Of a DNA stretch of 64,000 nucleotides, positions 5,258 to 19,668 are shown piece after piece. The stretch is from Brachybacterium sp. FME24 (GTDB taxonomy: Bacteria; Actinomycetota; Actinomycetes; Actinomycetales; Dermabacteraceae): positions 186,001 to 250,000 of the forward strand of contig NZ_JABUXV010000005.1 of the NCBI RefSeq assembly GCF_014897705.1, in the 5' to 3' direction. Position 1 is the first letter of the stretch. Every line of letters starts with the position of its first letter. The position numbers were made by a program, and so were the translations under genes. A model generated the notes under the pieces. That model was given only the letters and a program-made list of their open reading frames with translations. It made no database searches and was not told the DNA's origin.

Positions 5258-7441
5258 TCAGAACACGTCGGGCGGATCCAGGCGCACCCGCAGCGACCCG
5301 CGAGCTTTGCGGGCCGAGCGGGTGGCGACGCCGGCGCGGAGCGCGTCGGCCAGCTCCCGGGAGCGGCGCGGATCGAGACGGACCACCGCCCGGGCACGGC
5401 CGCCCGCCTCGGGGCCCTCGAGGTCGACGGGTCCGAACACGTCGGTGCCGACGGGCAGGTCGGTGCTCTCCAGGAAGGCCGCGCAGGCCTCCTTGTCCCC
5501 CACGATCTCCGCGACCCGACTGAAGGGAGGCAGATCCAGCTCGCGGCGGTCCGCCAGGACACGGTCGAGGAAGGCGTGCGAGCGGTGGGCGACCAGATCG
5601 CGGATGGCGGGCAGGGTCGCGGTGCCGACCACGAGCACCTCCCCGCCGTCGTCGGCGGTGCGCACCAGGGCGATGGCGTTGCGCCAGCGACGGATGGCCT
5701 CCACATCGGCGTCGAAGGCGGCGCGGCCGAGCATCGCATCGGCGTCCAGCAGCAGGCCGGCTGCGAAGCGGTCCGGGGGCCAGGGCTCGGCCCCGGGTGT
5801 GGCGACGACGATCGCATCGGCCGGGACGTCGCCGTCCTCCAGGACGCCGTGCGCTCCCCCGGCGACCCGCAACGGACTGCCGGGGAAGGCTCGGTGGAGC
5901 TCCTCGGCCGTGCGGGTGGATCCGATGACCACGGCGCGCACCTGGGTGCGGTCGCACTCCGGGCAGCGGTAGCCGTCCTCACGTCGACCGCAGACCCGGC
6001 AGTGCAGATGACCGCTGCGGCCGGTGATCGACAGGGGAGCCGCGCAGTGCGGGCAGTGGGCGCGGGTCCCGCAGAAGGTGCAGGAGATCGCGGGCACATA
6101 ACCGGAGCGCGGCACCTGCACCAGCACGGGGCCTCGCTCGAGGCCGCGACGGATCACCCGCATGGCCTCCTGCGGGAGTCGGGATCGGCCGGAGGGCCCC
6201 TCACGATCGCGGAGGTACTGGTCCATGGCGACGATGCGCGGTCGTGCCGCCGTCACGGGGGTGGGGCTCGGCTCCAGGCGGGCGAGGTAACCGGCGTCGG
6301 CGAGTGCCCGCAGGGGGACGGACTCGCTGGCGGACAGGAACAGCAGTGCGCAGCGCTCCTCGCGGGACCGGCATTGGAGCACCGTGCGCACGTGCGGGTA
6401 CGGCGCGCGGGGCTCTCCGAGGAGATCGTCGGCCTCGTCCCAGCAGATCACGAGCGCCAGGTCCTGCACCGGGGCGAACGCAGCGGAGCGATTGCCCAGG
6501 ACGACCCGGGTGGCGCCGCGCAGGATGCGCCGGAAGGTGCGGTAGCGCTTCTCGGGGCCTTCGGTGCCGGCAAGGATCTCGTGGTCGATGCCCTGCTGCG
6601 TCAGGACCTGGCTGAGGCGGGCGACGTCGCGCTGATCGGGGGCGATGACCAGCGCGCCCTGCTCGTCGTCGAGATCGGCGATCGCGTCGGCCACGACTGC
6701 CGTCCAGGGGTCGACGGCGTCGAGGGTGAGGGCGGCGCGGGGGACGGGCCCGGTGGGGCTGCCGGCACGGGAGAGCAGCGCTGCCAGCCCTGGATAACGG
6801 TCCCCGGGTCGGGGAACGGCCCGGAGCTCGCCGGGGTCTTCGGGGGCGTCGGATCCCTCGGGCTCCGTCTCCATCGTCGTCTCTGTCTTCTGCGCGGCGG
6901 CGCGGTCCGCTTTCTCGGCGCGGGCGTGTCGCGGAGGGAGAGCGAGGCGCAGCACATCCCCCACGGTGCCGGCGCAGCGCTCGGCGACGTCGTCGCACAC
7001 GCGCATCATGGCGGGTGGGACGACCACGTCCTCGGAGACGAGGCGATGCAGAGGGGCCAGGGCGCGGTCGGTGGTGGGCGCCTCATGGCGCTCCAGGACG
7101 ATGCCTTCGGTGTCACGGCCCGAGAACCGCACCCGTACGCGCATGCCGGGCCCGGCAGCGGAGGTGGCCGGGGTGACGGCGTACTCGAAGGGCCGGTCCA
7201 GGTGCGGGAGCACACCGACCAGGCGCACGCTCGCCACGGGGAGCTCATCGACCACCTCGAAGCCGGCGGTGGTGCGCAGCCCCCGGACCCGGGCCGCCGG
7301 TTCGCGGCCCGGGTCCGTCGGTGCGGGGTCGGGAACAGGAACGGCGGGGGCCTCGAAGAGGCTCTCCTGGCCCTCTCCCTGCTCCCCCGCCGCACCGATG
7401 GCGGATGTGCTCAGCGCTTGTGCACCGCCACCAGGTCGCAC
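5258..7441 (-). CDS. priA: Primosomal protein PriA, helicase-inactive actinobacterial form
   Basis: Replication-restart protein PriA, 727 aa from the GTG used here. The N-terminal DNA-binding domain (VRLVGVLPHLDRPFEYAV) and the zinc-binding block with eight Cys (CTFC, CPHC, CRVC, CPEC; about residues 430-475) are intact. The ATPase motifs are not: there is no GxGKT Walker A, and the DEAH box reads WDEADDLL. Loss of ATPase motifs is typical of actinobacterial PriA, so it probably works as a scaffold. The start is uncertain: the GTG lies 31 nt inside the upstream FKBP gene, and no later ATG occurs before the conserved domain. Confidence 0.88.
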   Translation of the reverse strand: MRPGGGAQALSTSAIGAAGEQGEGQESLFEAPAVPVPDPAPTDPGREPAARVRGLRTTAGFEVVDELPVASVRLVGVLPHLDRPFEYAVTPATSAAGPGMRVRVRFSGRDTEGIVLERHEAPTTDRALAPLHRLVSEDVVVPPAMMRVCDDVAERCAGTVGDVLRLALPPRHARAEKADRAAAQKTETTMETEPEGSDAPEDPGELRAVPRPGDRYPGLAALLSRAGSPTGPVPRAALTLDAVDPWTAVVADAIADLDDEQGALVIAPDQRDVARLSQVLTQQGIDHEILAGTEGPEKRYRTFRRILRGATRVVLGNRSAAFAPVQDLALVICWDEADDLLGEPRAPYPHVRTVLQCRSREERCALLFLSASESVPLRALADAGYLARLEPSPTPVTAARPRIVAMDQYLRDREGPSGRSRLPQEAMRVIRRGLERGPVLVQVPRSGYVPAISCTFCGTRAHCPHCAAPLSITGRSGHLHCRVCGRREDGYRCPECDRTQVRAVVIGSTRTAEELHRAFPGSPLRVAGGAHGVLEDGDVPADAIVVATPGAEPWPPDRFAAGLLLDADAMLGRAAFDADVEAIRRWRNAIALVRTADDGGEVLVVGTATLPAIRDLVAHRSHAFLDRVLADRRELDLPPFSRVAEIVGDKEACAAFLESTDLPVGTDVFGPVDLEGPEAGGRARAVVRLDPRRSRELADALRAGVATRSARKARGSLRVRLDPPDVF

Positions 7442-7791
7442 ACGAACACGAGCGACTCGCCCGGGGCGATGACCGGCGGGGCGCCCATGTCGCCGTAGGC
7501 GAGCGAGGCGGGGATGTCGAGGCGACGGCGGCCGCCCACCTTCATGCCCTGCACGCCCTGGTCCCAGCCGGAGATGACCTGGCCGACGCCGAGCTGGAAG
7601 CGCAGCGGTTCGCCGCGGTCCCAGGAGGCGTCGAACTGCTCCCCGGTGGAGTGGGAGACGCCGACGTAGTGCACGTCGACGACGTCCCCGCGCCCGGCCT
7701 CGTCGCCCTCACCGACGATCTCGTCGTTGCTGACGAGCTCGGTGGGGGCAGGCGCTTCAGGGTGCTCGATCTCGGGCTTGCTGCGGTCCAT
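7411..7791 (-). CDS. FKBP-type peptidyl-prolyl isomerase, cytoplasmic
   Basis: A single-domain FKBP of 126 aa with no signal peptide. The domain (about residues 25-125) shows VDVHYVGV, FDASWDRGEPLRFQLGVGQVI, GWDQGVQGMKVGG and AYGDMGAPPVI, with the hydrophobic pocket residues conserved. It likely speeds proline isomerisation during folding. An AGGAGG Shine-Dalgarno sits 5 nt before the ATG. It lies between an FKBP lipoprotein gene and priA, all on the minus strand. Two FKBP genes next to pafA recur in related actinobacteria. Confidence 0.92.
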   Translation of the reverse strand: MDRSKPEIEHPEAPAPTELVSNDEIVGEGDEAGRGDVVDVHYVGVSHSTGEQFDASWDRGEPLRFQLGVGQVISGWDQGVQGMKVGGRRRLDIPASLAYGDMGAPPVIAPGESLVFVCDLVAVHKR

Positions 7792-7830: not shown

Positions 7831-8793
7831 TCAGTCTGCCAAGTGCGCGGCGTCGAGGATGTCCACGACGAAGATCAGGGTCTCGCCGCCGAGCTCGTGC
7901 GCCTCGGGGTCCTCGCCGTAGGCCTCCGCCGGTGGGACCACCAGCATGACCTGGCTGCCGACGGGAAGCTCCAGCAGGTTCTCGTCCCAGCCGGGGATCA
8001 CCGCGCCGGCGCCCTGGGCGAAAGAGAACGGCGCGCTGCGATCCCACGAGGAGTCGAACTGCGAGCCGTCGGACCACTTCCACCCGGTGTAGTGCATCGT
8101 CAGGTAGTCACCCTCGCGGGTGGCGTCGCCGGCGCCGACGATGAGCTCCTCGCGGGTCGTCGCCGTGGGCGCCTCACCCTCGGGCGCGCCGTCCAGGGCA
8201 GGTGCACCGTTATCGCCGAGGCTCACAGCGGGGAAGGTGCCGGACGGGGACCCGGGCTCCCCCTCAGCGCGCAGCGGGGAGACGATGCGGTCCACGTCGG
8301 CCACCTGGATCAGGGAGCGCGCCTGCCCGGACTGGTCCTGCTGCCAACCGGCCATCACGAAGCGGGAGCCGATGGTCATGGTCGTGAACACGTCGAAGGC
8401 TGCCTGGCCGACCGTCTCGACGGTGACCTGCACGCCGCCGGCCGGGGCACCCTGCCACCAGGACTGCAGGGTCTCCCCCGTGCTCGCATCGACGTAGAGG
8501 TGGCGCCAGATCATGGTGTCGCCCTCGGCGACGGCAGCGCCGTCCCCGGGCACGACCACGGTCGCATCGGCCTCGGCGATCTCGAGCGGCGCGGTGAATT
8601 CGACGGTGGGTTCCGCGCCGAGATCCTCGCTGACGGTGACGGCGGACAGCGCGGAGCCGCCACCGCCGCCGTCGGAGGAGCCTCCGCCGTCGGACGCTCC
8701 GCCGGTCCCCTCGCCGTCATCGGAGCAGGCGGCCAGGCCGATGGCGGCGGTCGCGGCGAGAGCAGTGGTCAGCAGGGTACGACGGCGGATCAC
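7831..8793 (-). CDS. FKBP-type peptidyl-prolyl isomerase lipoprotein
   Basis: A 320-aa lipoprotein with a signal peptide (MIRRRTLLTTALAATAAIGL) followed by lipobox AAC with Cys22. A Gly/Ser/Asp-rich linker leads into two FKBP-like units. The first (about 50-170) is degenerate. The second (about 210-315) is canonical, with MHYTGWKWSDGSQFDSSWDR, GWDENLLELPVGSQ and PPAEAYG. It is probably an extracytoplasmic folding factor anchored in the membrane. The gene lies 39 nt upstream of the cytoplasmic FKBP and 96 nt downstream of pafA. Confidence 0.9.
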   Translation of the reverse strand: MIRRRTLLTTALAATAAIGLAACSDDGEGTGGASDGGGSSDGGGGGSALSAVTVSEDLGAEPTVEFTAPLEIAEADATVVVPGDGAAVAEGDTMIWRHLYVDASTGETLQSWWQGAPAGGVQVTVETVGQAAFDVFTTMTIGSRFVMAGWQQDQSGQARSLIQVADVDRIVSPLRAEGEPGSPSGTFPAVSLGDNGAPALDGAPEGEAPTATTREELIVGAGDATREGDYLTMHYTGWKWSDGSQFDSSWDRSAPFSFAQGAGAVIPGWDENLLELPVGSQVMLVVPPAEAYGEDPEAHELGGETLIFVVDILDAAHLAD

Positions 8794-8889: not shown

Positions 8890-10278
8890 TCAGGCGGGCG
8901 GCACCGGGGGCGGGGAGGACTCGCCGAGACTGCGGATCTCCTCCAGCAGGGCGTCCACCGCCGGCAGGGAGGTCGCGAAGGGGTCCAGCACCTGCACCGG
9001 CATGGCACCGGGACGGGTCAGGCGCAGGGTGGTCCAGTCCACGACATGGTCGACCCCGTGCTGCTGAGCGGCGGTGACGACCTGTCCGCGCAGGTGCGCG
9101 CGCGTGGTGGTCGGGGCGGTCTCCCGGGCGGCCTCGATGCGCTCCTCGGCCACTGTCGACGGGGCGAGATCGCGACGCTGGAGGTTTCGAAAGATGCTCT
9201 GACCGGGATCGATGTCGTGATACGCGAGATCGAGGCGTTCGATCGCCGGATCGGAGAGATCCACGCCCCGGCGCTCGGTGACCTGGGTGAACAGTCGCTC
9301 CTTGATCGCCCAGTCCAGATGCGTGGCGGCCCAGGAGCGGTCTCCGGTGCGCACCGCATCGATGGCCCGCTGCCAGGTCTCCAGCACTCCCTGTTCCGTC
9401 TCGTCGGCTGTGCCCGCGGCGAGATCGAGCCAGCGCTGCTGCACCTCGACAGCGGTGGTGGTGGCGCCGCCGGCGGTGGGGATCGGGGCCCGCCCGGTGA
9501 GGTCGCGGGAGACCGACCGGATCGCGGCGATGTCGTCGTGGAGGGTGAGCTCGGGCAGCGCGCGACCGGACTCGATCGCGCGCAGCACCAGATCGGTGGT
9601 CGCGAAGCGGAGGTAGGTCGAGACCTCGCTCATGGTCGAGTCGCCGACGATGACGTGCAGGCGCCGGAAGCGGGTGGGGTCCCCGTGGGGCTCATCGCGG
9701 GTGTTGATGATAGGTCGGGTCCGGGTGGTGGCCGAGGAGACCGCCTCCCACATGTGATCGCTGCGCCGCGAGAACACGAACTGGGCGCTGTCGTCAGAGC
9801 GGACCACTCCCCCGGCGCCGGTGATGATCTGGCGGGTGACCAGGAAGGGCAGGAGGTAGCGCGGGAGGCGGGTGAATTCGCCGCGGCGATCGACCAGGTA
9901 GTTCTCGTGGGAGCCGAAGGCGTTGCCCTGGGAGTCCACGTTGTTCTTGAGCAGGTGGATGCGGGCGTCCTGCCCGTCGGCCGCGAGGCGCTGGTTGGCC
10001 TGCGCGGTGAGATCCGCGAAGATGCGCTCGCCGGCGCGGTCCTGGGCGACCAGGTCCCACCAGTCGTCGCACTCGGCGGTCGCGTATTCGGGGTGGGATC
10101 CCACGTCGAGGTAGAGCCGCGCGGCGTTGCGCAGGAACACGTTCGAGGAGCGCCCCATGGCGACCACCGGCCGGAACAGCTCGCGGGCGGCGGCCTCGGG
10201 CTCCATCGCACGGGTGCCGTCCGCCCGCACGCACACCAGGCCGAACTCCGTCTCCAGCCCTCCCACACGACGCTTCAT
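8890..10278 (-). CDS. pafA: Pup-protein ligase PafA
   Basis: ATP-dependent ligase that joins the C-terminal Glu of Pup to substrate lysines. 462 aa, normal length, with a carboxylate-amine-ligase-like fold. Visible motifs are GGLETEFG (Mg-ATP binding, residues 6-13), YLDVGSHPEYATAE with the conserved Asp58 (equivalent to the general base Asp64 of corynebacterial PafA), KNNVDSQGNAFGSHENYL and NTRDEPHGDPTRFRRLHV. Start chosen at MKRRVGGLETEFG. The ATG is only 4 nt downstream of the pup stop, with no proteasome genes between them. Confidence 0.96.
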   Translation of the reverse strand: MKRRVGGLETEFGLVCVRADGTRAMEPEAAARELFRPVVAMGRSSNVFLRNAARLYLDVGSHPEYATAECDDWWDLVAQDRAGERIFADLTAQANQRLAADGQDARIHLLKNNVDSQGNAFGSHENYLVDRRGEFTRLPRYLLPFLVTRQIITGAGGVVRSDDSAQFVFSRRSDHMWEAVSSATTRTRPIINTRDEPHGDPTRFRRLHVIVGDSTMSEVSTYLRFATTDLVLRAIESGRALPELTLHDDIAAIRSVSRDLTGRAPIPTAGGATTTAVEVQQRWLDLAAGTADETEQGVLETWQRAIDAVRTGDRSWAATHLDWAIKERLFTQVTERRGVDLSDPAIERLDLAYHDIDPGQSIFRNLQRRDLAPSTVAEERIEAARETAPTTTRAHLRGQVVTAAQQHGVDHVVDWTTLRLTRPGAMPVQVLDPFATSLPAVDALLEEIRSLGESSPPPVPPA

Positions 10279-10282
10279 GAGG

Positions 10283-10474
10283 TCACTGACCGCCCTTCTG
10301 CACGAAGGACCGCACGAAGGTCTCCGCATTGGATTCCAGGACGGCGTCGATCTCGTCGAGCAGATCGTCCGCACCCTGGGCCGAGGCGAAGGTCTGCCCG
10401 CCGGTGGTGGCTGCGGACTCCTCGGCGCCCTCGTCGGGGCCGCCGCCGGGGGCGTTCAGGGACTGCTGGGACAT
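10283..10474 (-). CDS. pup: Prokaryotic ubiquitin-like protein Pup
   Basis: A 63-aa modifier protein. It is disordered and acidic, with the conserved C-terminal helix region [20 protein letters not shown] that binds the ARC/Mpa coiled coil, and it ends in VQKGGQ. The C-terminal Gln means Dop must deamidate it to Glu before ligation. Only one Lys is present (residue 60). It is sandwiched between dop (9 nt) and pafA (4 nt). An AGGAGG Shine-Dalgarno precedes the ATG. Confidence 0.97.
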
Positions 10475-10483
10475 GGGTCCTCC

Positions 10484-12184
10484 TCAGGACTGGGAGACGG
10501 CGCGGCGCAGGGCGTCGAGGATCGTCTCGGGATCGGTGGTCAGGTCGATGCCGTGCAGTTCGCACCAGGCGGCGGAGCCCAGCCGCGGGTCGGCCAGGCG
10601 CAGTCGATGCCCGCTGTCCGGGCCGGCGAGGGTGATCGCATCCCACCCGGCCGACGGGACGTGCGCGCGATGAGCGGCGATCAGACCGCCTCGGAGATGA
10701 GCGCGGGTCGAGGTGGGCGCGGTGGTGACGGCCGCGTCGACCTCGTCCTGGCCGACGAGGGTGCGCACGGCGCCGGCGGCCCGGAGCTTGTCGAACAAGC
10801 CCCGTCCCGGGCGCAGATCGGAGTACTGCAGATCGATCATGAACAGGCGGGGGTCGCCCCACTCGAGTCCGTGCCGATCCCGGTAGCGGTTCAGCAGCTG
10901 GAGCTTCGCGACCCATTCGACGCGGTCCGCGGCGGCGGCCGGGTCCTGCTCGAGGAGGTCGAGCAGCTCGCCCCAGGAGGCCAGCACGAGGGCCGTCTCC
11001 TCGTCACTGGTGTCCGCCACCGCGGCGATCGCCTCGAGGTGGGCCCGTTGGATCTGCACCGCGGTGAGCTCTCGGCCGTCGGCCAGGGGCACCGTGGCCC
11101 GGAGCGTGGGGTCGTGACTGATGGTGCGGACCGCGTCGACCGGATCGGCGAGGCGCAGGTCCGGCAGGATCGCCTGCCCGGTGCGATGCTCCGCCTCCAG
11201 CGCGGCGAGCACCAGGGAGGCGGTGCCGAGCTTGAGGAAGGTGGACTCCTCCAGCAGGTTCGCGTCACCGATGATCACGTGCAGGCGGCGGAAGCGGGAG
11301 GGATCCGAGTGCGGTTCATCGCGGGTGTTCACGATCGGCCGGTTCAAGGTGGTCTCCAGGCCCACCTCGGCCTCCATGAAGTCGGCGCGGGAGGAGAGCT
11401 GGAACCCGGGGCGCTCTCCGCGGGTCCCGAGGCCCACGCGACCGGCACCCACCAGCACCTGGCGGGTGGACAGGAACGGCAGCATCGCGGCGGCGACCCG
11501 CTCGAAGGGCACGGCCCGGTCCACGAGGTAGTTCTCGTGGGTGCCGTAGGAGGCGCCCTTGCCGTCGGTGTTGTTCTTGTACAGGGCGACGTCCGGGATG
11601 CCGTCGGCGGCCTCGATGATGCCCATGGCGCGGCGCGCGATCTCCTCGCCGGCGCGGTCCAGGACCACGGCCTCGCGGGCGCGCATCACTTCGGGAGCCG
11701 AGTACTCGGGATGGGCGTGGTCGACGTACCAGCGGGCACCGTTGGTGAGCACGGCGTTGCCGAGGGAGCGCTGGGCGGCCCAGGTGAGCACCTCGGCGTC
11801 GTCCCCGTCGGGGGCGATCTCGGAGCCGGTCAGCGGCGCATCCAGCTCGACGCTGGGCACGTGGGCGTCGCGGACCTCGTCGGTCAGCTGGGTGGGGTGT
11901 GCTGCCGCACGCTGCAGCTCGAAGCCGCGGGCGTCGCGCAGCGGAGTCTCGTCACCGTAGTCCCACCGCACCCGACGACCGCGTTCCCCCTCGTGCGGGT
12001 CCAGCAGCGCGTAGGCGCCCACGACCAGGTGGGACAGCAGGATCGAGCTGCCGGCCCCGGCGCGGGTGCGGGCCTCGAGATCGGCGTGCAGCACGCCGAA
12101 CTCCGTCTCGATGCCCATGACCCGCTCGGTGGTCAGCGCGGCTGCAGCATCCGGCCTCGCCGGCTCGATCGGCTGGATAGTCAT
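10484..12184 (-). CDS. dop: Pup deamidase/depupylase Dop
   Basis: PafA paralogue that converts Pup-GGQ to Pup-GGE and removes Pup from substrates. 566 aa, somewhat longer than the usual ~500, because of insertions around residues 60-150 (the Dop-loop region and the stretch before [20 protein letters not shown]). Motifs: [59 protein letters not shown]. The start overlaps the arc stop as ATGA, so it is translationally coupled. Confidence 0.95.
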
Positions 12185-13752
12185 GGGGTCGACTCCTCGA
12201 GGTCCGGGCCCGAGACGGCGCGGGAGCGTCCCTGCAGCGGGACCACCGCATCGACCCGTCGTCCGGTCCCGGAGATGCGCGCCCAGTCCTCGGGGTGCGC
12301 GGCCGAGGGCATGTCCTCGTTCTCCACGAACTCGGCGGTGATCGCGTCCCGCAGGTGCTGCGTGGTCAGGCCCACGTCGCCGGTGGCGAGCTGGTCCTTG
12401 ACCGCGTGCTTCTTCGCGCGGTCGGTGATGTTGCGCAGAGTCGCCCCGGAGACGAAGTCCCGGAAGTGCAGGGTCCCCTCGGTGCCGTCGGAGTACTCCA
12501 GGCGCACGAAGGCCGAGTCCGGGCCATCGGAGTAGATCTCGCGCACGGCGAGGTCGAGCAGGGTGCCGCGGTCCTCGCGGAACGGGACGCTCTCGTCGAG
12601 GTAGAGCCCGAGGATCTCGCGGCCGGCCCGCGCGTTGGGGCGGCGAACCCGGATCTTCACGTCCAGGCGGCCGGGGCGCAGGATCGCGGGGTCGATCATG
12701 TCCTCGCGGTTGGAGGCGCCGATGACGATCACGTTGTCCAGGCCCTCGACGCCGTCGATCTCGGCGAGCAGCTGGGGCACGATCGTGGTCTCGACGTCGC
12801 TGGACAGGCCGGTCCCGCGGGTGCGGAACAGGGCTTCCATCTCGTCGAAGAAGATCACCACGGGATGGTCGGCGGCGGCCTTCTCCCGAGCCCGCTCGAA
12901 CACCAGACGGATCGAGCGCTCGGTCTCGCCGACGTACTTGTTCAGCAGCTCCGGGCCCTTGACGTTGAGGAATGCCGAGTTCTCCAGCGCCTCGGCGACG
13001 CTGACCCCGCGCACCTCGGCGCTGCGCAGCACGAGTTCGTGCGCGACAGCTTTCGCGATCATCGTCTTGCCGCAGCCGGGCGGGCCGTACAGCAGCACGC
13101 CCTGCGGCGGGCGCAGACCGTAGGTGCGGTAGAGGTCCTGCTGGAGGAACGGCAGCTCGACGGCGTCGCGGATAGCCTCGATCTGCCCGCCGAGCCCTCC
13201 GATCTGGTCGAAGGAGACGTCAGGGACCTGCTCGAGCACCAGGTCGGTGATCTCGGCGCGGTCGATGCGCTCCATGACCAGTTGGGCCTTGAGATCCACC
13301 AGGACATGGTCCCCGGGATGCAGCGTCTCCTGCGTCAGGGTGCCGGCTGGGCGCAGCACGCGGGTGTCGTCGGGGGCCACGGCCACCAGGATGCGCGAGT
13401 CCGCGAGGGACTCGACGACCGGGACGACGTTGCCGGCATCCCCGGCCGGCACGGCCTCGACAGCGGCGAGGGCCTCGTTCAGGCGCAGCTCCGTGCCAGG
13501 TTCCAGAGCGTCCAGGTCGAGGCTCGCGGCGGTCGCGACCCGCAGCCGACGACCGTTGTGGAGCACGTCCAAGGTGGTGCCCTCGGCACGGCGCAGGAAG
13601 GTCGCGTAGGAGTTGGGCGGATCACCCACCCGCTCCAGGTCGCTCTTGAGGTCGACGATCTGGGCGCGGGCGGCGCGCAGACCGTTCGTGAGCCGCTCGT
13701 TGTGGGCGGCGAGCTGATCCAGCTCCGCGGTCATCTCCGCGTAGGTCTTCAT
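12181..13752 (-). CDS. arc: Proteasome-type AAA+ ATPase ARC (Mpa homologue)
   Basis: Hexameric AAA+ unfoldase that recognises Pup through an N-terminal coiled coil. Order: coiled coil (about 1-50), tandem OB domains (about 55-200), AAA module with Walker A GPPGCGKT, Walker [12 protein letters not shown] and sensor/arginine region [14 protein letters not shown], then a C-terminal tail. The tail ends ...[10 protein letters not shown] and lacks the GQYL-type motif that docks Mpa onto the 20S proteasome. The ATG at 13752 matches the family N-terminus, but GTG at 13758 sits at a better distance (5 nt) from AAGGAG. ATGA overlap with dop. Confidence 0.95.
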
Positions 13753-13789
13753 CGTCACGGCATCTCCTTCCGATCCCTGCCGGGCCGTC

Positions 13790-14860
13790 TCAGCGGTCCC
13801 GGCCCTGCCGGATATCGCGCAGTGCGCGCTTGAGCTTGCGCGGGGCGACTCCCCGCTCCCCGACGTCGCTGGGACCCCACTCGGAGTCCGATCCACCGAA
13901 CCCGTCGTTGTCGGGGTGATTCACCTCGTCCTCGATCCGGGAGCCGGGGGCGGGTCGGGTCACGCGGGTCAGCGCGCGGGTGCCATGCGCCGAGCGCCGA
14001 GCGGTCAGCAGGAATCCGGTGTGGGCGTTCATGCGGTGCTCCGGGCGCACCGCAAGGCCCTCGAGGTGCCAGGGGCGCACGAAGGACTCCCAGGCGTAGG
14101 GCTCGGTGAACTCGCCGTGATCGCGCAGCGCCTCTGCGGTGCGGGAGAGCTGGGTGACGGTCGCGACGTAGGCCAGGTACACGCCGCCGGAGACCAGCAC
14201 GTCGGCGGCGGCGTCCACGCATTCCCACGGGGCGAGCATGTCGAGCACCACGCGGTCCACGGCGGGCTGCCCGGGCGAGAGCGTCGGGGCGATGTCCTGG
14301 AAGTCCCCGACCGAGAGGTCCCAGGACGGGTTGGGGCCGCCGAAGAACGTCTCGACGTTCTCCCGGGCCACCTCGGCGAAGTCCTCACGGCGCTCGATGG
14401 AGTGCACGGAGCCCTCGGGGCCGACGGCGCGCAGCAGCGCGGTGGTCAGCCCGCCGGAGCCGACCCCGGCCTCCAGCACGCGGGCGCCGGGGAAGATATC
14501 GCCCCACATGAGGATCTGCGCGGAGTCCTTGGGGTAGATGATGGCGGCGCCGCGGGGCATCGACAGCATGTAGTCGGCGTACAGCGGGCGCAGGGCCTGA
14601 TAGCGCGTGCCGCGGTTGTCCTCGACGACGACGCCGTCCTCGGCGCCGATCATCTGGTCATGGCGGAGCACGCCGCGGTGGGTATGGAACTCTCCGCCGG
14701 GCTTCAGGGTGATCGTGTGCAGGCGGTTCTTGGAATCGGCGAGCTGGACCTTGTCGCCGAGATCGAAGGGCCCGGTGCGGTCCAGGCCGCGACGGGGCGC
14801 TCGGGGCGCGGGAGCCGACGCCCCGTCGTGGGCGGCGGGCTGCTGCGGCTGATCAGTCAT
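13790..14860 (-). CDS. trmI: tRNA (adenine-58-N1)-methyltransferase TrmI
   Basis: SAM-dependent m1A58 methylase of the TrmI/GCD14 family, probably a homotetramer. 356 aa from the start used here. It has an N-terminal beta domain (about 35-100) followed by a Rossmann fold with motif [17 protein letters not shown]. Downstream motifs include [11 protein letters not shown], which fits the NPPY-replacing catalytic region of TrmI. The last 60 residues are charged and variable. Start chosen at MTDQPQQ because a TATGCT hexamer ends 7 nt upstream; two further in-frame Met/Val codons lie 12-21 nt upstream. Its 3' neighbour is arc (37-nt gap), a common actinobacterial linkage. Confidence 0.93.
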
Positions 14861-14867
14861 GCGTCCC

Positions 14868-14873
14868 AGCATA
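14868..14873 (-). promoter_or_regulatory. -10 element of trmI (leaderless), heading the pupylation cluster
   Basis: TATGCT on the minus strand ends 7 nt before the ATG at 14860, with no Shine-Dalgarno. It may drive trmI-arc-dop-pup-pafA as one transcript, because no terminator-like hairpin is obvious between these genes. Confidence 0.5.
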
Positions 14874-14913
14874 TGACGCACGGTGAGACGTCAGCGCCCC
14901 AGAGTAGTGATGT

Positions 14914-16138: not shown

Positions 16139-16948
16139 ATGAGTCGAATCGCCATCACGGCTTTCAGCGGATGGAACGACGCGGGAGAGGCCGCCAGCGG
16201 GGTGATCGAGCATCTGCTCGAGGTGTGGCCGTCACGGCCTGCCGGAGCGGTCGACGCCGAGGAGTTCATCGACTTCCAGGTCAACCGGCCCGAGATCCGG
16301 ACTACCGAAGAGGGTCTGCGCGTCATCGACTGGCCCGAGACGCAGCTGCGGATCGTCGAACCGCCCAGCGGCCCCGAGATCGTGACGGTCATGGGGCCCG
16401 AGCCATCGCTGCACTGGAAGCGATTCTGCGACGAGGTGCTCGAGCAGATGCAGCTCCTGGGCGTGAGCTCGGTCGTCTCCCTGGGAGCATTGCTGGCAGA
16501 TTCGCCGCACACGCGGCCGCTGCCGGTCTCCTCCGCCCCCGAACCGGGAGCCGCCGACCGGATTGACGACTCCGAGCAGTACTCCGGTCCGATCGGGGTG
16601 CCGACGATCCTGGCCCGCCGCACCGCGAGCGCGGGACTGCCCACCACCAGTGCGTGGGTGCAGGTCCCCCATTACGTCTCGCAGAATGCCTCCCCGAAGG
16701 CGGTGCTGGGCCTGCTGCGAGAGGTCCAAGGACTCGTGAGCGCCCCGATACCCATCGCGGAACTGGTCGAGGACGCGGAGGCCTGGGAGCGCGGTGTCGA
16801 CGAGCTGGCCCGCACCGACGAGGATGTCGCCGAGTACGTACGGCGTCTCGAGCGCGCTCAGGACGCGGCGGATCTGCCGGAGGCCAGCGGCGACGCGATC
16901 GCCAAGGAGTTCGAGCAGTTCCTGCGCAGGCGGCGCGAATCCGAGTGA
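16139..16948 (+). CDS. PAC2 family protein
   Basis: A 269-aa soluble protein of the PAC2 family, named after a eukaryotic proteasome assembly chaperone. The N-terminus ITAFSGWNDAGEAASGVIEHL, the core PEPSLHWKRFCDEVL and SVVSLGALLADSPHTRP are typical of actinobacterial members. The molecular function is unknown in bacteria. It is notable that it is kept in a genome region with pupylation genes but no proteasome core. The C-terminal 60 residues are acidic and helical. Start fixed by a leaderless -10/ATG arrangement. Confidence 0.88.
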   Translation: MSRIAITAFSGWNDAGEAASGVIEHLLEVWPSRPAGAVDAEEFIDFQVNRPEIRTTEEGLRVIDWPETQLRIVEPPSGPEIVTVMGPEPSLHWKRFCDEVLEQMQLLGVSSVVSLGALLADSPHTRPLPVSSAPEPGAADRIDDSEQYSGPIGVPTILARRTASAGLPTTSAWVQVPHYVSQNASPKAVLGLLREVQGLVSAPIPIAELVEDAEAWERGVDELARTDEDVAEYVRRLERAQDAADLPEASGDAIAKEFEQFLRRRRESE

Positions 16949-19338: not shown

Positions 19339-19668
19339 TCAGCGCCGGTCGTCGGCCACCTCATCGTTCGAGTCATCGTCATCGTCATCGTCATCGTCGT
19401 CGGCGTCGAACTCATCGAGATCGTCGAAGTCGTCGTCGTCGTCATCATCGTCGTCTTCGTCGTCGTCCGTGTCGAAGACGATGAGCGGAGTGGCGATCTC
19501 GTACTCGTCGAAGAGCGCGTCGTCGTAGGTGTCGAAGGCCGTGGTGAGCTGCTCGGTGGCGGCGTCCAGGGCTGGATCGTCATCATCGCGGGAGGCGGCT
19601 GCCGCCTCGTAGTGACGTTCAAGGGCAGCGATCAGCGCAGCAAGAGCGGAGCGAGGATCCGTGTTCAT
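19339..19668 (-). CDS. Small Asp-rich protein with helical N-terminus
   Basis: A 109-aa protein of unknown function. Residues 1-65 form a predicted helical domain (DPRSALAALIAALERHYEAA, then TEQLTTAFDTYDDALFDEYE). Residues 68-109 are almost pure Asp with a few Glu, Phe and Leu. Similar short acidic proteins in Micrococcales are often labelled primosomal protein or primase without real support. The Asp tract is built from GAC/GAT triplets (19375-19470), so it is prone to length changes. Predicted leaderless start (TACCGT then six bases). Confidence 0.75.
   Translation of the reverse strand: MNTDPRSALAALIAALERHYEAAAASRDDDDPALDAATEQLTTAFDTYDDALFDEYEIATPLIVFDTDDDEDDDDDDDDDFDDLDEFDADDDDDDDDDDSNDEVADDRR

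Follow-up and report, generated by a model that had tools for sequence, protein, structure and literature searches.

The 64,000-nucleotide stretch of Brachybacterium sp. FME24 analysed here (contig NZ_JABUXV010000005.1, positions 186,001 to 250,000; hereafter the window) carries the pupylation genes arc, dop, pup and pafA, and probably represents a proteasome-less pupylation locus of the Corynebacterium glutamicum kind. On this reading, the locus differs from an ancestral arc-dop-pup-prcB-prcA-pafA-fkbp-fkbp-priA cluster by the missing prcB-prcA pair, the ATPase ARC would act without a 20S proteasome core, and both the docking features of ARC and the activator Bpa would have been lost before the core. 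Proteasome-less pupylation is already textbook, and the window locus is one further case. Passages of a 2019 review state that about half of the sequenced actinobacteria lost the core and kept pupylation (PMC6466877), and passages of a 2012 review describe proteasome-less genomes in which pup lies directly before pafA and the ATPase is kept but its interaction motif is missing (PMC3511204).

The window locus and the missing proteasome

The genes lie on the minus strand in the order m50, trmI, arc, dop, pup, pafA, a lipoprotein-type fkbp, a second fkbp and priA (Table 1). All four pupylation genes exceed the curated cut-offs of their models: arc scores 669.5 bits with TIGR03689 (cut-off 504.75), dop 578.2 bits with TIGR03688 (492.3), pup 70.2 bits with TIGR03687 (41.45) and pafA 594.5 bits with TIGR03686 (551.3). 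The arc and dop genes overlap through an ATGA, dop and pup are 9 nucleotides (nt) apart, and only 4 nt are left in the pup/pafA slot, which prcB and prcA occupy in core-bearing sister genera. The initial annotation had described a contiguous and coupled arc-dop-pup-pafA set with this 4-nt gap, a Pup ending in GGQ and an intact Dop; the coordinates and the four curated models agree with the first point, and the QKGGQ C-terminus, the TIGR03688 score and the presence of the Dop-loop region with the others. Segments of the window PafA, Dop and ARC align with solved PafA, Dop and Mpa, and we take the PafA segment, the Dop loop and the matching ARC stretches to be the active sites. The ARC product consists of an N-terminal region, OB domains and an AAA module. 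Its alignment with Mycobacterium Mpa spans residues 7-512 of 524 in the query, and the tail is not covered. This tail ends in GPDLEESTP, with no GQYL, and the hairpin reads SDGTE against the pattern A[NSG]GD[KT]. When named genomes were scanned, the 20 loci closest to that of the window all came from Brachybacterium, and B. alimentarium is the nearest relative of the window locus in a 56-row tree. A promoter and terminator scan gave no promoter-like site; the two terminator-like sites, where chance predicts 1.0, are both plus-strand.

Table 1. Coordinates of the pupylation genes and their neighbours in the window
Feature	Positions	Strand	Remarks
arc (Mpa/ARC AAA+ ATPase)	12181..13758	-	GTG start at 13758 or ATG at 13752
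dop (depupylase/deamidase), Dop-loop region present	10484..12184	-	TIGR03688 and alignment with solved Dop
pup, 63 aa, C-terminal QKGGQ (PupQ)	10283..10474	-	TIGR03687
pup/pafA gap, 4 nt, CCTC	10279..10282	-	between pup stop and pafA ATG
pafA (Pup ligase), conserved segment LDVGSHPEYATAECDD	8890..10278	-	TIGR03686 and alignment with solved PafA
First FKBP, N-terminal lipoprotein-type signal (IGLAACSDD), predicted exported	7831..8793	-	signal read from sequence
Second FKBP, short, no such signal	7411..7791	-	conserved neighbour
TrmI-like tRNA methyltransferase	13790..14881	-	conserved neighbour upstream
PAC2-family protein	16139..16948	+	opposite strand, beyond M50 protease gene

No proteasome subunit was found by a PF00227 search of the genome itself (4.81 Mb, 67 contigs, 99.99% complete), nor in any of 38 Brachybacterium genomes; the same search matches 137 of the 248 genomes sampled from the order (G and L codes below denote genomes and loci of this sample). 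Bpa (PF10759) likewise has no match in the window genome. Pupylation without a proteasome, as proposed by the initial annotation, thus stands, with intact genes, purifying selection and no PF00227 match in the genome or the genus; looking for prcA or prcB elsewhere in the genome, the check it had named, returned nothing and hence no refutation. Weak prcB hits in the Brachybacterium loci L098, L099 and L102 (22-27 bits) were not taken for remnants of the gene, being apparently arginine-rich translations of the pup region in another frame. Additionally, no match above cut-off was found in 10 genomes for the Cdc48-like Cpa as an alternative cap, with a model that was not built for Cpa.

Purifying selection acts on the pupylation genes of the window. 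Five comparisons of the window with other Brachybacterium gave ratios of nonsynonymous to synonymous substitution (dN/dS) of 0.13-0.23 (arc), 0.10-0.28 (dop), 0.19-0.36 (pup) and 0.15-0.20 (pafA), similar to the neighbouring priA (0.16-0.29) and trmI (0.12-0.26). These values, all far below 1, bear on the idea that the locus is a decaying, non-functional relic, which the loss of both proteasome and Bpa might suggest, as might the greater sequence variation in enzymes of proteasome-lacking organisms mentioned in passages of the 2012 review (PMC3511204). With intact reading frames and an ARC above the curated cut-off in 45 of 47 genomes of the family (the remaining two assemblies are 88% and 74% complete), a relic is highly improbable. 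Among the 18 full Brachybacterium loci, Pup ends in GGE in three (L094, L097, L101) and in GGQ in the other 15, and dop is found in all 18, the GGE-ended ones included; dop may be maintained by a need for depupylation and not for deamidation.

In the mechanism that we propose, Dop would turn Pup-GGQ into Pup-GGE, PafA would join Pup-GGE to substrate lysines, ARC would grip the conjugate by its Pup part and pull with no protease behind it, and Dop would take Pup off again for recycling. The substrate would then be unfolded, disassembled or regulated, and not fed to a 20S core. The parts are observed to be present, and their biochemical outcome is most likely the one inferred from C. glutamicum: by this analogy, ARC in Brachybacterium is probably an unfoldase of Pup-tagged proteins, with Dop recycling the Pup. 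A non-degradative role fits because the window ARC has no docking tail, in line with the parallel to corynebacteria drawn by the initial annotation. In C. glutamicum, ferritin is disassembled by ARC, according to passages of two reviews (PMC8223512, PMC12288473); the window genome has two ferritin-family (PF00210) matches. Pupylation could still be degradative if ARC delivered Pup-proteins, once unfolded, to a different compartment protease or simply left them exposed to it, given that the ARC motor and N-terminal region are kept and that an FtsH-like match is present (so named from the position and length of the match). However, the ARC tail varies between Brachybacterium species and holds no common docking feature (the tail being the part of ARC that was searched), and the published role in the core-less C. 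glutamicum is disassembly, which makes this alternative unlikely.

Core-bearing relatives and the order of losses

The Dermabacteraceae sample comprises 47 genomes, of which five have a core: G272 (genus g87), G058 (g2) and three of the four g3 genomes. In all five (L081, L082, L126-L128) the core sits between pup and pafA, and the ancestral-type arc-dop-pup-prcB-prcA-pafA-fkbp-fkbp-priA cluster persists in the sister genera. The G058 and g3 loci have the same flanks as the window, so that synteny differs only by prcBA; at the G272 locus, trmI and FKBP matches are present and m50 and priA were not detected. The roles of the ARC tail motif and hairpin in docking are treated in passages of a cryo-electron microscopy study (PMC8755798). 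G272 has all three features, namely a GQYL tail, an AGGDK hairpin and Bpa. The ARC tails of G058 and the three core-bearing g3 genomes end in SLRREQV, SEEVAAP, GIGETL and TGGGAQ, without GQYL, their hairpins read TGGER or ADGTT, and these four genomes gave no match for Bpa. Across the family, Bpa occurs in one of the 47 genomes, G272, which is also alone in having a GQYL-ending ARC among the 27 genomes whose C-terminus was read (the window genome included). Hairpin statements cover the rows in which the pattern was found by rule, several rows being omitted.

A 24-row tree built on arc, dop and pafA separates a crown (g2, g88, g86, g3 and Brachybacterium) from G272 and the other rows with support of 100/100, and leaves both arrangements of g2 and g88 possible. 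Within the crown, the core is present in g2 and in three g3 genomes, and absent from g88, g86, the fourth g3 genome (G202) and Brachybacterium. If loss is irreversible, this distribution takes four crown losses (g88, g86, G202 and Brachybacterium); if regain is allowed, it takes three changes. A direction-free count gives 4 over the 24 rows, one of them for G230, and a single clade for the 13 core-less family rows is rejected by the approximately unbiased (AU) test (p 1.7e-40). As to sampling, the 56-row tree omits L084, L085, L090, L100, L102, L105, L107, L110, L113, L114, L115, L132, L137 and L152, together with loci missing one of arc, dop or pafA; the 24-row tree additionally omits L083, L088, L092, L093 and more distant families, and the tree of the core genes omits L137.

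By parsimony, we infer that ARC was probably first uncoupled from the core through its GQYL tail and hairpin, with Bpa lost as well, and that prcBA was then lost repeatedly. In its broadest form, this proposal holds that the docking tail, hairpin and Bpa disappeared while the 20S core remained, that pupylation was freed from proteolysis before up to four core losses, that g2 and g3 are living intermediates and that ARC uncoupling also occurred in families f7 and f19; we give it about even chances of being right. A different history, with a single core loss in the crown and later transfer of the core back into two sister genera, would draw on the patchy core state (G058 and three of four g3 genomes) and on the three crown changes that it takes, against four losses without regain. 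The position of prcBA in the ancestral slot with identical flanks argues against transfer, as does the core tree, where G058 adjoins g3 and neither is nested in another sampled group, both being on long branches; we regard regain as rather improbable.

The PrcB of G170, aligned with the Mycobacterium subunit, keeps TTI where the mature chain begins, as well as DRR, K and DSAT, which are presumably the catalytic residues. Among three g3 genomes, with trimmed open frames and dS near saturation, the dN/dS ranges were arc 0.031-0.035, pafA 0.041-0.044, dop 0.055-0.097, prcA 0.061-0.094 and prcB 0.115-0.159. Weakened selection on the uncoupled g3 core was considered and rejected, since a same-genus control, also on trimmed open frames, shows about the same prc/pafA factor where ARC bears GQYL: the median dN ratios of prcA/pafA and prcB/pafA are 2.10 and 2.62 in g3 (3 pairs) and 2.52 and 2.33 in the GQYL-bearing genus g8 of f6 (21 pairs), while the f13 genus g15 gives 3.22 and 2.68 (45 pairs). 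The present-day g3 core is constrained as usual. On deeper branches, identity between g2 and g3 is 39-47% for prcB, 48-56% for prcA and 62% for arc; in pairs of GQYL lineages core identity stays within 12 points of arc, and the sister-genus core compared with GQYL outgroups lies 0-13 points below arc, overlapping that range. In the core tree the sister genera sit on long branches, and a shift of partner or function fits this deeper divergence equally well as decay. On the broad proposal above, the orphan core of the sister genera, still under purifying selection, would need to have a job without either known docking activator, and would perhaps be served by some new one.

Several points weigh against the reading preferred here. 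The window genome is split in 67 contigs, and a small gap could remain in it. The order of losses rests on parsimony, and repeated tail loss or core regain could explain the same pattern; with regain, the crown takes only three changes, and the sister-genus branches in the prcBA tree are long. The same-genus control speaks against decay of the g3 core, its prcA and prcB evolving relative to pafA no faster than in a GQYL-bearing genus. Moreover, the loss order differs elsewhere: G230 (L158, family f9) has lost the core, yet its docking features look almost intact, with an ARC ending in GTYL and an ASGDK hairpin. The f16 genomes G062, G184 and G244 keep an AGGDK hairpin and have neither tail nor core. 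The loss order thus varies between lineages, since f9 and f16 keep docking features without a core.

The pattern across the order

In the sample of the order, PafA is found in 224 genomes (201 above the curated cut-off), the core in 137 and Bpa in 108; four PafA-negative genomes were taken from the ARC match table. The core never occurs without PafA (0/137), nor Bpa without the core (0/108), and passages of a review likewise state that Bpa is absent wherever the core is absent (PMC8223512). PafA without the core occurs in 87 of the 224 genomes. Conversely, 29 genomes have a core and no Bpa match; 15 of these belong to families other than f1, f7 and f19 and have an ARC with a GQYL or GPYL ending. 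Of the 137 core-bearing genomes, 129 had their ARC tail read (missing are G030, G052, G066, G074, G088, G103, G130 and G131): 98 end in GQYL, 2 in GPYL and 29 in neither, and these 29 tails without GxYx fall in f7 (19), f19 (8) and f1 (2).

In f7 (for instance L141; ARC C-termini L261-L278), all 19 core-bearing tails lack GQYL and 12 of them end in [ND]SDL[VL]. Bpa is found in 17 of the 19 genomes (L287-L303), and all 17 Bpa tails end in GNYL. The f7 core is probably served by Bpa, because 17 of 19 genomes have Bpa with GNYL tails throughout and ARC tails without GQYL; either ARC has a new docking code in this family, or it is uncoupled from a Bpa-served core. In f19 (ARC C-termini L279-L286), ten of eleven sampled genomes have the core, with no Bpa match, and all eight tails read lack GQYL, five ending in GGR[QH]VE[LA]. 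This family is possibly a second lineage of orphan cores.

Neighbouring genes, significance and comparison with known systems

The listed GTG start of the first FKBP gene lies 96 nt from the pafA stop, and its product starts with MIRRRTLLTTALAATAAIGLAACSDD, which reads as a lipoprotein-type signal; because of it, the first FKBP should act outside the cytoplasm. FKBP neighbours were already noted in 2008, Streptomyces among them, in passages of that study (PMC2588565). All 17 fetched prcBA-bearing loci have an FKBP gene, 13 of them both kinds, as do 53 of the 62 fetched core-less loci, and six of the nine core-less loci without any FKBP are from Corynebacterium. The initial annotation had taken the FKBP pair after pafA as a hint of remodelling or refolding; this is not supported, as the genes sit at the locus whether or not a proteasome is present, and we do not use them as evidence of refolding. 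The PAC2-family gene is kept near the locus though the genome has no proteasome; PAC2 relatives are linked with proteasome assembly in passages of the same 2008 study (PMC2588565). Further along, a minus-strand, low-complexity open reading frame at 19339-19668 (109 codons) has a very Asp-rich C-terminal half.

The relatives of Brachybacterium make it testable whether Pup is a degradation tag or a regulatory one, and which came apart first. Any genome that combines a core and Pup with a tail-less ARC amounts to a natural uncoupling mutant. Stable pupylated proteins in such genomes would mean that pupylation without degradation predates, and is independent of, proteasome loss. The conserved cores of the sister genera would also need a new activator or act without any. 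If the broad proposal, with uncoupling in f7 and f19 as well, is true, non-degradative pupylation would be common even among proteasome-owning bacteria. As to the novelty of INTERMEDIATES, a literature search of titles and passages found no report of core-bearing lineages with a tail-less ARC.

Among known systems, C. glutamicum is matched in several ways: in Brachybacterium too, pup lies directly before pafA, dop and arc are kept, prcBA and Bpa are missing, and ARC has no C-terminal interaction motif. On the other hand, Brachybacterium belongs to the family Dermabacteraceae, its sister genera retain the core in the same slot, and the window has PupQ, whereas the Pup of C. glutamicum is Glu-ended according to passages of the 2012 review (PMC3511204). 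It also has FKBP neighbours, none of which were detected in six of six fetched Corynebacterium loci; in this it resembles the mycobacterial-type systems of the order, whose fetched core-bearing loci have them. With the mycobacterial Pup-proteasome system, the window shares the same four pupylation genes in the same order, but prcB, prcA and Bpa are absent and the ARC tail and hairpin are lost. Propionibacterium acnes, which has a core and neither ARC nor Bpa in passages of a published account (PMC4254994), is an earlier example of a 20S core that has no known activator, the state also seen in g2 and g3. Unlike P. acnes, g2 and g3 keep the entire pupylation pathway, including a tail-less ARC.
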